DNA from: a virus
Length of the DNA: 33,483 nucleotides
Virus record (IMG/VR): IMGVR_UViG_3300023174_000421
Span: 1-33,483 of that record
Reading direction: 5' to 3' (one strand)
Within the stretch, counting starts at the first letter, position 1, and each line of letters starts with the position of its first letter. The notes under the pieces were generated by a model. That model was not told where the DNA came from, did not search any database, and saw nothing but the letters and a program-made list of their open reading frames with translations. The position numbers were made by a program, and so were the translations under genes. Shown here piece after piece: positions 8,528-30,658 of the stretch.

Positions 8528-8555
8528 TTGACAGCGACCTCAAAGATGCTATAAT
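8528..8555 (+). promoter_or_regulatory. Early promoter, leaderless configuration
   Basis: TTGACA (8528-8533), a 16-bp spacer and a perfect TATAAT (8550-8555). The ATG of the next gene begins only 8 bases after the box, where transcription should start. The mRNA is therefore predicted to have no leader. Confidence 0.85.
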
Positions 8556-14719: not shown

Positions 14720-15079
14720 ATGCACATCAGCACATTTCTCACCATTCAGGCTCAACTTCGTATTCTGCATTGGCAAACCAAGTCGTATGCAGAACATAAG
14801 GCTCTAGGCAAGGCGTATGATGCGCTAGATGATCTCGTTGATCAGTTCGTTGAAGTTCACTCCGGTAAGTATGGCAACACCCTTGCCAAGAACAATTTTC
14901 AATTCTCTGCCGTGAACTACAAGGATGCAAATGTTATGGCACTCATTGATTCTTACATTTCGTATCTTACAAATGAGTTGCCCCAAGTTTGCAAAGAGGG
15001 CGATACTGATCTTTTAAACATTCGGGATGAAATGCTTTCTGTCCTGAATCGGACCAAGTATTTGCTCCGTCTGACTTGA
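14720..15079 (+). CDS. Ferritin-like (DUF5856-type) protein
   Basis: Protein of 119 residues. The stretch QLRILHWQTKSYAEHKALGKAYDALDDL, continuing to DQFVE, resembles the first helices of Dps/ferritin-like proteins: H-W-Q-T, Y-A-E-H-K and a later acidic pair are spaced like metal ligands. A family of this kind (DUF5856) is frequent in T4-like phages. Whether it binds iron or protects DNA is untested. It has its own late promoter and Shine-Dalgarno site. The next early promoter overlaps its stop. Confidence 0.75.
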   Translation: MHISTFLTIQAQLRILHWQTKSYAEHKALGKAYDALDDLVDQFVEVHSGKYGNTLAKNNFQFSAVNYKDANVMALIDSYISYLTNELPQVCKEGDTDLLNIRDEMLSVLNRTKYLLRLT

Positions 15080-15104
15080 CACGAACAGCATTGCCTCGTA
15101 TACT
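15076..15104 (+). promoter_or_regulatory. Early promoter, near-leaderless configuration
   Basis: TTGACA (15076-15081), a 17-bp spacer and TATACT (15099-15104). The ATG at 15113 follows the box by 8 bases, so the leader would be 0-2 bases. The -35 box overlaps the stop codon of the upstream late gene. Confidence 0.87.
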
Positions 15105-15112
15105 CATACCAA

Positions 15113-15460
15113 ATGAGCGAAGATATCACATCATCATATTTCCCGATCTCCCGTTTCGCTTCTCGTTACGGTGATGATCGCAAGGTCTTCAAGGTCTCCG
15201 AGAACGAATACAAGTTGGTCGGATCAATGCGCTACTGTCGTACAGGTGGGGATGCAGATCGCGTCCTCTACATGGATCCTGAAGGTGGACCATTCATCTG
15301 TGTGGGTGACTCCATCGCAGAAAGCCTTGGCGTAGTATCAGACAATCGCTATATCTGTGAAGTCAAGGGACTTGGCACAGAGAAGGATCCAATGACAGGC
15401 GAAGAACTTTCCGTCATCGGCATCAAGGTTTCCCCTATCAAGGAAAAGGTGGAACTCTGA
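15113..15460 (+). CDS. Hypothetical early protein
   Basis: Protein of 115 residues with no recognised family. Alternating strands and turns (YKLVGSMRYCRTGGDADRVLYMDPEGGPFICVGDS, YICEVKGLG, LSVIGIKVSPI) suggest a small beta-rich fold. No Shine-Dalgarno site precedes the ATG, matching a leaderless transcript from the promoter just upstream. The stop overlaps the ATG of the next gene (TGATG). Confidence 0.75.
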   Translation: MSEDITSSYFPISRFASRYGDDRKVFKVSENEYKLVGSMRYCRTGGDADRVLYMDPEGGPFICVGDSIAESLGVVSDNRYICEVKGLGTEKDPMTGEELSVIGIKVSPIKEKVEL

Positions 15461-15621
15461 TGCTTGGTGGCGAAGCAGGAAAAGGCGATTCGTATCGCCC
15501 CGTTGACCGCAGGATGTGGTCAAAGAATTGGGATGCTATCTTTAGTAAGAAGAAGCCTTCCAAGAAGAAAGTCAGGAAGACTAATGTTAACCATTCCAGA
15601 AAGGAGAATACAAATGGATAA
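15460..15621 (+). CDS. Small basic protein of the GGKGD-type phage family
   Basis: Open frame of 53 residues: start GGEAGKGDSYRPVD, middle RRMWSKNWDAIFSKKK, and a Lys/Arg-rich tail. The pattern G-G-x-x-G-K-G-D-x-x-R-P then W-D-x-I-F-x-K-K is one I have seen in small proteins of many phages; its function is unknown. The ATG overlaps the previous stop and the 3' end overlaps the start of the next gene by 8 bases. A longer reading frame in another phase across this stretch is rejected because this fit is tighter. Confidence 0.72.
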   Translation: MLGGEAGKGDSYRPVDRRMWSKNWDAIFSKKKPSKKKVRKTNVNHSRKENTNG

Positions 15622-15808
15622 GGTTAAGACAAGTGTTTGCCCAGTTACTGGTGGTTGTGATAAGATTTCGTGCCTTCTATCAAAGGTCGGAATTACTCGT
15701 AGCCTCCTAATTACTCTCGCAATCCTTCCATATGCTTGGAAGGGTACTGTCCTCTGCGCCGAAGGAATTACGGCACTATGGGGCATCGTCACTAACGCCG
15801 TTAAGTGA
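15614..15808 (+). CDS. Small membrane protein with Cys cluster
   Basis: Protein of 64 residues. A Cys-containing start (CPVTGGCDKISC) precedes two hydrophobic stretches (about residues 27-43 and 46-62, SLLITLAILPYAWKG and LCAEGITALWGIVTNAV). No family recognised. The Cys residues could bind metal or form disulphides. The ATG at 15614 follows AAAGGAG by 7 bases, and the gene ends the early operon that begins at 15113. Confidence 0.7.
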   Translation: MDKVKTSVCPVTGGCDKISCLLSKVGITRSLLITLAILPYAWKGTVLCAEGITALWGIVTNAVK

Positions 15809-15845
15809 TTTCAATTGGTTGGCGGCGTGGTAGGAACACGCGGAC

Positions 15846-15874
15846 TTGACAAGAGTTGCAGTTGGTAATAAAAG
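15846..15874 (+). promoter_or_regulatory. Possible promoter for the tmRNA
   Basis: TTGACA (15846-15851), a 17-bp spacer and TAAAAG. The -35 box is perfect and the -10 box weak (4 of 6). It lies about 100 bases before the mature tmRNA 5' end. The stretch from 15809 to 15971 otherwise holds only a small hairpin (GCGTG/CACGC) and no convincing gene. Confidence 0.5.
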
Positions 15875-15971
15875 GTTTAGTAGGGTGTCACATCCTTACA
15901 ATGAAATCAACCCATAAAGCCAACAAAGAGGGTGACCTGGGTCATACACAAATCCCTCCCAACCCCACTAC

Positions 15972-16310
15972 GGGGATGAACAGGTTTAGACTGGATGGAC
16001 AAGAGAACGGAGCATGACGAAGAAGGATGCTAGGCTTCGTAAAAATGCATTCAAAATAAGACTGCCAATCGCAGACTTGCCCTCGCTGCTTAATCAGCGA
16101 ACGAATCTTGCCTAACCCCGATGGGGTAAGATTCGCAATCATCGGGACTTGACTTCAAGCCTCCACCGTGCTTGGAGATCATAAGATGAACGGTGGAAAA
16201 CTTGTCAAGGGTGTCCATGCCCAAGACATTTTAAAATGACATGGAATAATCATGTAGTAGCCGTTCTGGCGTTTCATACCAACACAGGGGTTCGACTCCC
16301 CTCATCTCCA
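15972..16310 (+). ncRNA. ssrA: tmRNA (one-piece), tag ANRRLALAA
   Basis: The ends form a tRNA-Ala-like acceptor: GGGGATG (15972-15978) with CATCTCC (16303-16309) and discriminator A. It includes a G-U pair at position 3-70, the alanyl-tRNA synthetase identity element. The T-arm is AGGGG, loop TTCGACT, CCCCT. In the middle a resume codon GCC at 16064 follows AAAATAAGACT and opens the tag ANRRLALAA, stopping at TAA 16091-16093 inside a hairpin (CGCTG/CAGCG). Several stems and probable pseudoknots follow. Length 339 nt, close to the bacterial size. tmRNA frees stalled ribosomes and marks the unfinished protein for proteolysis; the LALAA end fits ClpXP-type tags. Confidence 0.93.
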
Positions 16311-16327
16311 TTAACCAAAGGACTTTT

Positions 16328-16534
16328 ATGCAAATAGAAGATTTCATAATTCATACCAACATAGGCGAGTTTGCTCGTAAGGTTTCATGGATTTTGCAAT
16401 TGGAACACGAAGGAAAGTTCACTTCGTCAAAGGCATTTGAAGAGATCAAGAAACTCTACATAGAGTTAGAGAAGTCACAAGATACAGTTCGTGGAAATAC
16501 AGGAGCAGACAATGCAACAGGAAGATCGGTTTGA
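16328..16534 (+). CDS. Hypothetical small protein
   Basis: Protein of 68 residues, mostly helical (GEFARKVSWILQLEHEGK, SSKAFEEIKKLYIELEK) with a polar tail. No family recognised. AAAGGA lies 5 bases before the ATG, directly after the tmRNA 3' end, so it may be read from the same transcript. The 3' end overlaps the next gene by 23 bases. Confidence 0.7.
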   Translation: MQIEDFIIHTNIGEFARKVSWILQLEHEGKFTSSKAFEEIKKLYIELEKSQDTVRGNTGADNATGRSV

Positions 16535-17147
16535 GCGACATCCAATCAACGAAATCAGTCTCGCCAGAGTGGCGAACCATGTTGAAAATCGCCCGTTTAC
16601 ACTCCTTACTGCGTTTCGCTTCAAGAACAGAACGACTGGCGAACTTGTCTCCCTACAGACCAACCGAGCCAACAACGCAAAACTTGAAAATGACATTCGT
16701 GCTGCGGGGTTCGGATTTGACAAGATGATCGGCAAGTACGAAGAAGACTATGGCGATCACAAGGTCATGGTTTCCGAAGATTCGTTCATGGTCATCGGCA
16801 AGGACAATACTCCTGCTAGCGTTGGTGCAATCAAGGGATTTGCCAAGAAGATGGGGCAGAAGTATGGTCAGGACTGTGTACTCTTCAAGGATCCAAACCG
16901 TGAAGATGCCGTTGTCATCGGAACCTTTGAGGGTGCTTGGCCTGGTCTGAATGTCATCGCCTCTGTTGGTACATTCCATCCGATGCGCCTAGACGGCATT
17001 TATACCGAACTCAAGAAGAAGAACTCTCTAGGTGCGCGCACTTTCAAGTTTGAGGCTATTGAGTATCCACTTACGGTTATGGAAATCTGGGCAAAGAAAC
17101 TCCAGAGAAAGTTGAAGCCTGAAGATTATGAGCGAGACACCGACTAA
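16512..17147 (+). CDS. DUF3293-like protein
   Basis: Protein of 211 residues. The N-terminal two thirds has the order TAF(R)FKN, TNRANNAKLENDIRAAGFGF, a strand with a conserved acidic pair (MVSEDSFMVIG), then KGFAKKMGQKYGQDCVLF. This resembles the DUF3293 domain (N-A-x-L-x-x-x-L-x-x-x-G, E-x-S-x-x-V, and a YGQ-x-A/C-x-x motif). Function unknown. The ATG at 16512 is used because AGGAG lies 6 bases upstream. The 3' end overlaps the next gene by 20 bases. The family name is a motif-level guess. Confidence 0.62.
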   Translation: MQQEDRFERHPINEISLARVANHVENRPFTLLTAFRFKNRTTGELVSLQTNRANNAKLENDIRAAGFGFDKMIGKYEEDYGDHKVMVSEDSFMVIGKDNTPASVGAIKGFAKKMGQKYGQDCVLFKDPNREDAVVIGTFEGAWPGLNVIASVGTFHPMRLDGIYTELKKKNSLGARTFKFEAIEYPLTVMEIWAKKLQRKLKPEDYERDTD

Positions 17148-17430
17148 AAAGTCATGGAACGACATCAAGCCAAAGATTGAAGAAACACTCAAGGCTGACG
17201 GATTTGAAGATGCATTCATTGGGGTAGTAAGACGCTGCGGCAAACCCGCAATGTTCGTCTACGATTATCAAAAGTGTGTCAACATTCTGATGGCACGGGG
17301 GATTCCTACTGAAGAGGAAGCCATTGAATTCATGGAATACAATGTCGTAGGTGGTTGGCACGGCGAAGGCACGCCAGGCTTCATGGTTCGCTGCTCCATG
17401 CAGGAAACTTTTGAAGCCCTACAAGATTGA
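17128..17430 (+). CDS. Conserved phage protein of unknown function
   Basis: Protein of 100 residues. A central PAMFVYDYQKCVNILMARG segment precedes TEEEAIEFMEYNVVGGWHGEGTPGFMVR. The string E-x-Y-N-V-x-G-x-W-x-G-E-x-T-P is shared, as far as I recall, by short phage proteins of unknown role. The ATG at 17128 lies within the end of the preceding gene, so the pair is probably translated together. Nothing suggests an enzyme. Confidence 0.72.
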   Translation: MSETPTKKSWNDIKPKIEETLKADGFEDAFIGVVRRCGKPAMFVYDYQKCVNILMARGIPTEEEAIEFMEYNVVGGWHGEGTPGFMVRCSMQETFEALQD

Positions 17431-17478
17431 ATTGTTAAGCCGCAGTTCAACTTATCGCCCAAGCAACATACTGTCCCT

Positions 17479-17724
17479 ATGAATTACCTCTCTCTTATTT
17501 CTTTCTCCATTTCGGGTCTCGCCTCTATCACCGCTTTTCAAATTTGGCTATATCGTTTTGCCTATCAGCAGGGCTATGATGTTGGCAAGCATTGCGGTTT
17601 TACAAATGGTCTCTACCAAGGCAAAATTCGTGAGAATCACCGCTTGACAGAACAGGCGAATAAGAGTAAGATGTCCACATCATGGGCGAACAGCAATTCA
17701 TCAAAGCGTATGTCCACAGTCTGA
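17479..17724 (+). CDS. Small protein with N-terminal membrane anchor
   Basis: Protein of 81 residues. A hydrophobic N-terminal segment (residues 3-26, YLSLISFSISGLASITAFQIWLY) is followed by a polar, Gly- and Asn-containing tail (QQGYDVGKHCGFTNGLYQGK). No family recognised. No Shine-Dalgarno site is visible. A weak CATACT box 6 bases before the ATG could be another leaderless early promoter, but no good -35 box accompanies it. The early promoter for the next gene lies inside this coding region. Confidence 0.62.
   Translation: MNYLSLISFSISGLASITAFQIWLYRFAYQQGYDVGKHCGFTNGLYQGKIRENHRLTEQANKSKMSTSWANSNSSKRMSTV
17644..17672 (+). promoter_or_regulatory. Early promoter inside a coding region, near-leaderless
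   Basis: TTGACA (17644-17649), a 17-bp spacer and TAAGAT (17667-17672). The ATG at 17682 lies 9 bases after the box, so the leader would be 0-3 bases. It lies in the 3' part of the gene at 17479-17724. Confidence 0.72.
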
Positions 17725-18527: not shown

Positions 18528-18650
18528 TCAAAGATGCGGCAAAGAGGATTCGCTCCCTGCCAAGGTTCGCCAAGGCTAGCCGCCCTCGTCTGTGCGAGGT
18601 TAAACAGGATTTAGGCACAGAGCGGCGGGGGAGAGTTTCCCCCGCGTATA
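18528..18650 (+). ncRNA. Predicted structured small RNA
   Basis: About 120 nt between an early promoter and a GC-rich hairpin, with no convincing ORF. One two-part hairpin pairs CCGCC (18580-18584) with GGCGG (18624-18628) and TCTGTGC (18589-18595) with GCACAGA (18615-18621). A second, CGGGGGA (18626-18632) with TTCCCCCG (18637-18644), overlaps the first by three bases, so the two may compete. The second is followed by GTATATTTG and could end transcription. The stretch 18651-18712 that follows contains only a weak TTGACG box. Homology to a known RNA family was not recognised. Confidence 0.55.
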
Positions 18651-18712
18651 TTTGCTTGACGGTAACTGCCTCGTCATGCCATTAAATCTCGCAGAGAGCA
18701 GAGAGATAACTT

Positions 18713-28906: not shown

Positions 28907-29954
28907 TTAAGCGTAAAGTGATTCCAAATACAGTTCTTTAAGAATGGTCTTGAGTTTGTTTGGATTGCCGACTTTCAGTTGGTCAATCTCATTATTGATG
29001 ATGGACAGAGTGTCTTGAGCAACATCAACTTGTTCTGTGAGAGTGATGCCCATCTCCTTGTCCTCAATTACCGTTGCTCCATAGACTCCGATGTTCGTGA
29101 GTCTATCAATCAGCGTATCAAACATCACGGGATTGGTCTTCTTACGAACTACCACACGAACGAATGTGTGCTTGTATCTATCCAAGTCACAAGAGGTATA
29201 ATCCTCCTGCTCATCGTCATAGATGAGTTGTGTAAAAATAGTGAGTGGATTGCGAATGTATTCAAGCGTCCGATTATCGGTGTCAAATACATGGAACCCC
29301 TTTGGCTCATTGAGATCAGCAAATGTAATCTGATATGGAGTGCCAAGATAGTTCACATTCCCACGGCTGTGCTTTTGGTGGAAGTGACCGCTGAAGACCG
29401 CTTCAAAATCCTTGAAAATCGCAGGATCCATTCCGTCTTCATGCTTCACTCCACGCATGACTTCATAGCCTGTGAGTTCCAAGTGACCCATGAGAAAAGG
29501 AACCTTGTTCTTCACAGCCTTCTCAATGAATGCCATGCACTCATCGTTGTTGTCCTTCGTGATCCAAGGAACAAAAGCAATCTTCACTCCATCAAACTCA
29601 AGAACCGTTGGCTGCTCCAAGAGACCGTCACCAAAGTCATTGTGAAACAACTCGCGCATGGAGTTGACTTGGTTTGTGTTCTTGAAGTAGACATCGTGAT
29701 TACCAAGGATCGCATACACCTTATGATTGGAAACAAGAGGTTGTATGAAACGCTTGCGAACCTCGTTCAGCGTGGCGAAGTTGATGAACTTGCGCCGATC
29801 AAGCAGATCGCCCAAATGAAACACGGTATCAATCTTATTCTTCTTCAAGTACGGCAAGAACACCTCGTCCGTAAACTTGAAGAAATGGTGCAGGAAGATC
29901 GGTGAATCACTACGCGCACCGAAAGTGGGTATCACAGATGATAGCGATTTTCAT
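28907..29954 (-). CDS. 47: gp47 recombination nuclease subunit (SbcD/Mre11-like), apparent +1 frameshift
   Basis: Mre11-type phosphoesterase of about 348 residues when read through a frameshift (T4 gp47: 339). The ATG at 29954 opens MKIAIICDTHF, with metal motif I (D-x-H). An extra C at 29921 then shifts the frame, and the rest follows as GARSDSP, GDLLDRR, GNHD, GHLELTG and SGHFHQKHS. Without the shift, frame 0 hits TAG at 29910-29912. A GTG at 29935 would start the second frame but loses the D-x-H. The slip site TTT-C lets tRNA-Phe move +1 onto TTC before a CGG codon. Programmed shifting, a real mutation or a sequence error are all open. The ATG overlaps the stop of the GIY-YIG gene (ATGA). 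Confidence 0.88.
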
Positions 29955-30658
29955 GGGTGATTCTCCAATCTGGCAAATCTGAATCCCTTGTGATGTGCTT
30001 GTTTACCTTCAAGCACACCGCAAGCATTGCGGTAAGTAAGACCATTGTTTTTACAAAACTCCGTCAGACAGTTTGTTATTGTTTCTTTACCATCTGGAAA
30101 CCAAACCCTGTATCGTTTTGCCGCAGGATTGGCAGCACCAGATTTTCCTTTTCCAGGAAATTTTAGACCTTTATTCCAAGCAGTTTTGCTTTTTCTTCCA
30201 TTTTCTCTTGCTAGTTCCTGCCGTTTTTGTTTTTCCGATGTGGGCAAGTTTTTCCAGTAGTTCCGTATACCCTCTATGTGGTTTTTCTTTTTTATCGGAT
30301 CGGAGTGTTGCTCCAAAGCGTTCTTTCTGATTTTGTTGGAAAACTCCGATGTCTTATATGGATCTATATTTCGCACCACAGGACTGCAATCTCCACCTTT
30401 TGTGCAGTTGTAGCCACTACCAAATGATTGGTAATGCGCCACCCACTTCTGTTCAAGTTGCAACACTTCTGTCAAATCATCGCATTCTTCAATCATTCTG
30501 ATAGTAAAACACTCTTTTCCATGCAAGCGTATTGCCTTACCTATTGGCTTGTCTGATCTTGTGTGTTGGTAGAAGCGATGTTTCAAAGTGGTTGAAGTAT
30601 ATCCGACATACTTCTTGCTATTTACGGAGTTTTCTATTAGGTAGACTTTGTATCTCAT
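29951..30658 (-). CDS. Free-standing GIY-YIG homing endonuclease
   Basis: Protein of 235 residues. The GIY-YIG core opens with KVYLIENSVNSKKYVGYT (residues 4-21) and continues with R28 and the family's later NCTKGGD. The C-terminal half carries NUMOD-like DNA-binding segments (NKIRKNALEQ, KSKTAWNKGLKF) and a basic FRFARL end. Such enzymes cut a target near their own insertion point and spread by homing. It sits between gp55 and gp47, overlapping the gp47 start codon by four bases, so translation of gp47 may be coupled to it. A CATACATA box 5 bases before its ATG predicts late leaderless expression. Confidence 0.9.
   Translation of the reverse strand: MRYKVYLIENSVNSKKYVGYTSTTLKHRFYQHTRSDKPIGKAIRLHGKECFTIRMIEECDDLTEVLQLEQKWVAHYQSFGSGYNCTKGGDCSPVVRNIDPYKTSEFSNKIRKNALEQHSDPIKKKNHIEGIRNYWKNLPTSEKQKRQELARENGRKSKTAWNKGLKFPGKGKSGAANPAAKRYRVWFPDGKETITNCLTEFCKNNGLTYRNACGVLEGKQAHHKGFRFARLENHP

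Follow-up and report, generated by a model that had tools for sequence, protein, structure and literature searches.

A conserved tRNA-like RNA element beside standard and within permuted tmRNA genes of T4-like phages

Transfer-messenger RNA (tmRNA) genes are a known kind of phage gene: ten phage tmRNAs were listed in 2014 (PMC4131195), a survey from 2022 found tmRNA in 402 of 18,146 phage genomes (PMC9004378), and a database from 2025 holds 79 unique bacteriophage tmRNA sequences (PMC11915505). One permuted tmRNA gene, GCA-2688965, has been reported as unique in that its intervening sequence holds an intact tRNA-Ala (PMC11915505). Here we analyse the virus record IMGVR_UViG_3300023174_000421 (33,483 bases, hereafter the window), which carries a standard tmRNA gene at 15972-16310 and, ending 7 nucleotides (nt) before it, a conserved structured RNA at 15817-15964 that we term the tRNA-like element (TLE). 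The novelty of this locus lies less in the phage tmRNA as such than in the conserved tRNA-like leader, which in permuted genes serves as the intervening segment. A preliminary description of the window had recognised the tmRNA and its tag, both of which are borne out here, but it had missed the conserved tRNA-like RNA directly upstream; its statement that a small number of phages carry tmRNA genes is too low in view of the 2022 survey.

From our point of view, the locus is best read, with a probability of about 0.6, as an early-type unit of a T4-like phage that encodes a working one-piece tmRNA with a basic tag for host proteases, and in which the TLE would act as a precursor-processing module.

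A standard tmRNA gene with a basic tag

The preliminary description had proposed a phage-encoded one-piece tmRNA with a G3-U70 pair and a T-arm, and had named a tmRNA covariance search as a check. This search (cmscan) matched RF00023 at 15972-16313 on the + strand over the full model (1-374 of 374) with 116.3 bits (cutoff 47, E 4.7e-45). The mature RNA ends with the discriminator A16310, which is followed by UUA, and CCA is not encoded. The acceptor stem GGGGATG/CATCTCC contains G3-U70 and is invariant in seven sequences. The features of the gene are as follows.

15972-16310, + strand: standard (one-piece) tmRNA gene, from the RF00023 match and covariation
16018-16052, + strand: pseudoknot 1 (16018-16022/16035-16039; 16025-16030/16047-16052), 11 nt before the resume codon
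16064-16093, + strand: resume codon GCC and tag frame ANRRLALAA-stop
16103-16146, + strand: pseudoknot 2 (16103-16109/16128-16134; 16117-16123/16140-16146)
16156-16196, + strand: pseudoknot 3 (16156-16160/16170-16174; 16163-16169/16190-16196)
16203-16244, + strand: pseudoknot 4 (16203-16206/16225-16228; 16215-16219/16240-16244)
16286-16302, + strand: T-arm of the tRNA-like domain, AGGGG/CCCCT, loop TTCGACT; 4 of the 5 stem pairs are changed on both sides

Covariation was assessed in seven distinct sequences of the window's group over 80 pairs (acceptor, T-arm, helix 2 and the four pseudoknots). The structure is 97.5% paired, compared to 32-41% with the partners slid, and double changes occur at 16 pairs, all four pseudoknots included, which was reached in none of 500 shuffles; the z-score of the minimum free energy is -3.1. 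Chance is ruled out for the window tmRNA, which is a maintained RNA and not a relic. The full-model match, G3-U70 together with the T-arm, the open tag frame and the four pseudoknots place the gene in RF00023; the order of the permuted family RF04321, with the 3' half before the 5' half, is not found, as the acceptor 3' strand lies downstream. In the tmRNAs of L005, L006 and L007, the T-stem is mostly exchanged (CCGAT/ATCGG for AGGGG/CCCCT) with pairing kept, and the T-arm loop has 6 nt, one below normal. ARAGORN called four tRNAs on the window and did not call the tmRNA at 15972-16310, whereas it does call the homologous tmRNA in L009-L011; an annotation relying on ARAGORN only would therefore overlook the gene.

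The tag frame reads GCC AAT CGC AGA CTT GCC CTC GCT GCT TAA and hence encodes ANRRLALAA, with two Arg residues where classical tags are acidic, as had been noticed before. Ten viral contigs were fetched via a 218-amino-acid (aa) gene downstream of the tmRNA, and in all ten a tmRNA lies upstream of that gene. L002-L008 all encode ANRRLALAA and differ only in AAT/AAC, CTT/CTC and the stop codon (TAA/TGA), while the tag of L009-L011 is ANKQPYRLALAA. A wider survey of 50 further contigs that share a neighbouring gene (phrog_858 type) yielded 12 standard and two permuted tmRNAs above the cutoff, whose tags include ANKQTRRYALAA, ARFNKKQSRRLALAA, ANKKRRFVYAKPAARQRRLALAA, ANNKSRFVYAKPVARQRRLALAA, ANTQYRLAA and ANTQYRMAA, next to the divergent AKENVVSYDFSYENVAAVAA and the permuted ANRMAMAA and ANQLAMAA. 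In more distant phages, several tags end in RR[L/Y]ALAA or RLALAA, with other codons used. As a basic stretch before LALAA recurs across phages in tags of 9 to 23 residues, ANRRLALAA is not a lone oddity. Synonymous-only change in the close relatives together with the recurrent RRLALAA end in others suggests that the encoded peptide itself is under selection, which would make the protease question testable.

Some tags deserve a remark of their own. Those of L143, L144 and L145 are unusually long (23 residues) and strongly basic, comprising ANKKRRFVYAKPAARQRRLALAA and a variant, and AKENVVSYDFSYENVAAVAA belongs to L142, on the 303-kb contig G046 of a very large phage. The large-phage tmRNAs L147 282-688 (-) and L149 1501-1907 (+) show a frame of ~33 residues ending in ...LELV, without the usual AA end, so that either the tag is highly unusual or the frame was set wrongly.

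Possibly, although we lean against it, the tmRNA gene was captured from the host and its tag is a plain copy of the host tag, in which case Arg would be ordinary for the host group and nothing would be redirected. Other viral contigs in our pattern scan carry ANDERFALAA, presumably a betaproteobacterial-type tag, as would be expected for such a copy. Tags with Arg near the ALAA end also occur in Chloroflexi and Actinobacteria, which serves as a lead only. However, a scan of 84,980 species genomes with every codon spelling of ANRRLALAA plus TAA or TGA gave three matches, with about two expected by chance according to our own estimate, none of which lies inside a tmRNA. The own tmRNA tags of the three genomes are DETNTYALAA, ANQQMAYAA and GNTQLALAA, and the RR-LALAA pattern was not found in 392 genomes from the phylum of one of the matches, a Phycisphaerae genome. 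It further speaks against a mere host copy that tag length varies so widely among the phages while the end stays fixed.

A different reading would take the tmRNA as a decoy that inhibits by titrating SmpB of the host. In mycobacteriophage DS6A, the tmRNA is reduced to the tRNA-like domain, and molecules of this kind inhibit host tmRNA (PMC4131195, PMC11915505). In the window, by contrast, frame, stop codon, resume context and all four pseudoknots are intact and conserved, and we regard a decoy as highly improbable.

The tRNA-like element upstream of the tmRNA

The TLE was noticed through a likeness: in L053-L059, more distant relatives that were reached via a 115-aa gene (15113-15460), the segment between the two tmRNA halves resembles the stretch before the window tmRNA. 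Its parts in the window are as follows.

15817-15964, + strand: TLE, conserved tRNA-like structured RNA element, from covariation and exclusive placement
15817-15822/15959-15964, + strand: P1, closing stem
15825-15829/15837-15841, + strand: P2
15843-15847/15853-15857, + strand: P3
15862-15866/15919-15923, + strand: P4, variable-arm-like
15928-15932/15954-15958, + strand: P5, T-arm-like

A pattern from the 5' part of the TLE was found in 15 contigs of a viral collection of 2.9 million, and in all 15 it sits 5-12 nt before a tmRNA 5' half; no TLE was found away from a tmRNA in this collection. In seven contigs (L002-L008) it is the leader of a standard tmRNA, and in the other eight it is the intervening segment of a permuted tmRNA, with the acceptor 3' strand upstream of the TLE. 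The permuted-tmRNA model matches L053, L054, L055, L057, L059 and L190; for L058, which stops 12 nt into the 5' half, and L189, the permuted order was read from sequence only. The acceptor halves are exact complements in L053-L055, and the other permuted contigs were called from a G-U pair within their acceptor stems. On L190, only tmRNA models match in Rfam, and these span the TLE as an unmodelled insert. Searches by blastn found no TLE in isolated phages or plasmids, and the open-licence literature searched yielded no paper on it. The TLE is an RNA structure absent from Rfam and tied to tmRNA in the viral collection searched.

The stems follow each other in cloverleaf order. Two nt separate the 6-base-pair (bp) closing stem from P2, a 5-bp hairpin with 7 nt in its loop; the hairpin P3 comes 1 nt later, and the long arm P4 is followed by P5, a hairpin of 5 bp that abuts the closing stem directly. 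In eleven distinct sequences with 31 pairs, this structure is 96.8% paired compared to 33-48% when slid, with double changes at 11 of the 31 pairs. Structure and exclusive placement of the TLE can be read from the sequences themselves, and so can the complete tmRNA with its tag frame and conserved pseudoknots. Compact members of the family fold markedly better than shuffles (z -3.2 to -4.4), and their last loop (UGCAAAU, UGUAAAU or UGAAAAU) is near a T-loop.

A TLE covariance model run over 854 kb of collected loci scored its own family at 120-139 bits and returned five weak outsiders at 14-18 bits, four of which fall on class II tRNA genes (Leu or Ser) called by ARAGORN. Since most of the weak matches land on class II tRNA genes, the TLE shape is tRNA-like by an independent measure. 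Compared with the tRNA family RF00005, the cloverleaf is present, and a 7-bp acceptor, an anticodon with U33 and an NCCA end are absent. A decoding tRNA is unlikely, given a closing stem of 6 bp, the missing NCCA end and an anticodon-loop equivalent that varies (UGACAAG, UGAGAAG, UGUAAAG) and has no U33. A scan of the window TLE against Rfam 15, riboswitches and self-cleaving ribozymes included, gave no match at E<=5, and ARAGORN at default called no tRNA in it; its assignment to a described riboswitch, ribozyme or tRNA was accordingly rejected.

The same variable loop without U33 would fit a degenerate tRNA gene that merely forms a structured spacer with no specific role, the more so as tRNA genes often lie beside tmRNA in these phages. 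We consider this quite improbable, since double changes maintain the pairing in both gene forms, the loops contain invariant bases and the TLE was never found away from tmRNA.

Conserved loops (UUGANAAGA, GUA.G.ACAC), maintained beyond what a mere handle would need, could instead point to a regulatory RNA, namely a riboswitch, an attenuator or a protein-binding leader that controls tmRNA output. A precedent exists in phage Melnitz, where a glutamine riboswitch adjoins the permuted tmRNA (PMC9004378). Yet the TLE is located inside the tmRNA precursor, in permuted genes between the 3' and the 5' half, no terminator-like site was found in 15000-17500 and no Rfam riboswitch matches, which makes a regulatory element unlikely from our point of view.

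Transcription unit, maturation and gene order

The window contig is a fragment of a T4-like phage and carries T4-type genes for a UvsW helicase, a late sigma factor and SbcC/SbcD-like recombination nucleases. The best isolated-phage matches of UvsW are Methylophilales phage Melnitz (53%) and Pelagibacter phage Mosig (52%), and BLAST with the tmRNA region retrieved no isolated phage. As the window proteins match only Melnitz, Mosig, cyanophages and a Microcystis phage among isolated phages, at distant identities of at most about 53%, we do not claim a host. The tmRNA and the TLE are accompanied by the following features.

15076-15104, + strand: sigma-70-type promoter TTGACA-17-TATACT (matching at 11 of 12 positions), which probably drives the tmRNA unit
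15113-15460, + strand: 115-aa open reading frame (ORF) with no assigned function, with homologues upstream of both standard and permuted tmRNA loci
15614-15808, + strand: probable small ORF of 64 aa in the stretch from the 115-aa gene to the TLE, with AAAGGAG ahead of its ATG; a longer ORF option around it is 15464-15808
16328-16534, + strand: 68-aa ORF starting 17 nt past the tmRNA end, with no PHROG match
16491-17147, + strand: 218-aa ORF, the syntenic marker for fetching relatives

The ATG following the promoter at 15076-15104 starts 8 nt past the -10 element and looks leaderless, which agrees with the early leaderless setting that the preliminary description had given as context. The same promoter motif occurs 5' of the gene in L050, and L051 has a weaker version. 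We infer that this promoter places the 115-aa gene, the small ORF, the TLE and the tmRNA in one early-type transcript. No smpB was found on the window and eight relative contigs (nine in total, one of 177 kb and most of them fragments).

Expression and activity of the tmRNA, the protease route and the role of the TLE can be imagined as follows. An early-type transcript would be made, from which host tRNA enzymes would excise the tmRNA; the host CCA-adding enzyme would add CCA, alanyl-tRNA synthetase would charge the RNA with alanine, and canonical trans-translation would proceed with host SmpB. Stalled products would receive (A)ANRRLALAA, addressed to host proteases that read the -LAA end. In E. 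coli, ClpX reads the -LAA end, and SspB reads the N-terminal part of the tag with its acidic residues. Since ANRRLALAA lacks the acidic residues read by SspB-type adaptors, help by SspB is not expected, and degradation would probably be adaptor-independent or proceed via an adaptor of the host that suits basic tags. The TLE could represent a processing and folding module of the precursor that is recognised by tRNA-processing enzymes, keeps the region beside the tmRNA 5' end cleavable and helps to define or free that end, and in permuted genes it would be the segment to be removed. As such, a processing role would let the same element fit both as a standard leader and as an excised permuted segment.

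Several points weigh against this reading. The processing role is proposed from no more than the shape and position of the TLE, neither ARAGORN nor Rfam classes it as a tRNA, and the enlarged TLE of the window and L053 fold no better than usual (z -1.3 and -0.5). Moreover, the relatives L009-L011 have no TLE, and standard tmRNAs of other origin mature with no leader of this kind. Finally, the fit to host SmpB and the protease route are hypothetical, as are the changed adaptor or protease choice and the redirected host trans-translation of the preliminary description.

With regard to gene order, the TLE of the permuted gene of L190 is 93% identical to those of the standard genes of L003/L004 and 81% identical to that of the permuted gene of L053, and the window (standard) and L053 (permuted) share a long form whose last loop carries an insert. 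Only three forks of the TLE tree are well supported. From these comparisons, the TLE appears to cross between the standard and the permuted gene form, either via recombination or via retention of old variants. In a simple model, a tandem duplication of TLE and tmRNA with loss of the outer halves may have led to the order 3' half - TLE - 5' half, or the change may have run in the reverse direction. The idea that the window tmRNA is a simple rearranged copy of the L053 permuted gene was dropped, as the mRNA-like parts differ too much in the alignment. One could speculate further that the TLE represents a new tRNA-like RNA class dedicated to tmRNA, which directs precursor maturation and acts as a recombining module for the switch between one-piece and two-piece genes, for example by tandem duplication, but this is a doubtful extension. 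The origin of permuted tmRNA genes is an old question, for which the TLE phages provide a concrete test system.

Three further observations concern the window as a whole. Near-consensus promoters at 8528, 10455 and 15076 (+) have an ATG only about 7-8 nt past the -10 hexamer, which suggests leaderless early messages, whereas at 247 and 18772 a ribosome-binding site comes after an identical TTGACA-17-TATACT promoter. A Pistol self-cleaving ribozyme (RF02679, 58.7 bits) lies at 18584-18651 (+), about 2.3 kb past the tmRNA, and is conserved at a comparable position in L002, L003 and L004. The ORF at 29951-30658 (-), between a gp47-like and the late sigma gene, has an N-terminus (MRYKVYLIENSVNSKKYVGYT) that looks like that of a GIY-YIG homing endonuclease.

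Comparison with described systems

The window gene shares with the standard tmRNAs of RF00023 the full-length match, G3-U70, the T-arm, four pseudoknots, the resume codon 11 nt past pseudoknot 1 and a tag with an -ALAA end. It differs from them in being phage-borne, in an RR tag with no acidic residue, in the lack of an encoded CCA and in the tRNA-like element just upstream. A tmRNA in a phage genome is also known from the mycobacteriophages Bxz1 and Wildcat, Bacillus phage G and Melnitz. The latter resembles the window in being T4-like and in providing the best isolated match of UvsW, but its tmRNA is permuted, its intervening sequence contains no TLE (the TLE model gave no match over the Melnitz genome) and it has the glutamine riboswitch. 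In Melnitz-3 (L192 1584-1720), the intervening region of the permuted tmRNA is apparently an open frame starting with MFKWLSKTRLVVITRDYF, as read by eye.

Class II tRNAs (Leu, Ser) have in common with the TLE the cloverleaf order, the long variable-type arm and the T-loop-like UGCAAAU on the 5-bp P5, whereas the TLE is not called as a tRNA, has a 6-bp instead of a 7-bp acceptor, no NCCA end and a changing anticodon-loop equivalent. Permuted tmRNAs (RF04321; alpha, beta and cyano forms) differ from the window gene, in which the 5' half precedes the 3' half in the usual way; L053-L059 and L190, from the same T4-like pool, nevertheless carry this permuted form with the TLE as intervening sequence. 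The closest counterpart of that arrangement is GCA-2688965, where a permuted tmRNA gene likewise holds a tRNA-shaped RNA in its intervening sequence. In contrast to its tRNA-Ala, the TLE is not recognised as a tRNA, is kept over many phages and also precedes standard tmRNAs. It thereby joins standard and permuted tmRNA genes, as the leader of the one is the intervening segment of the other.
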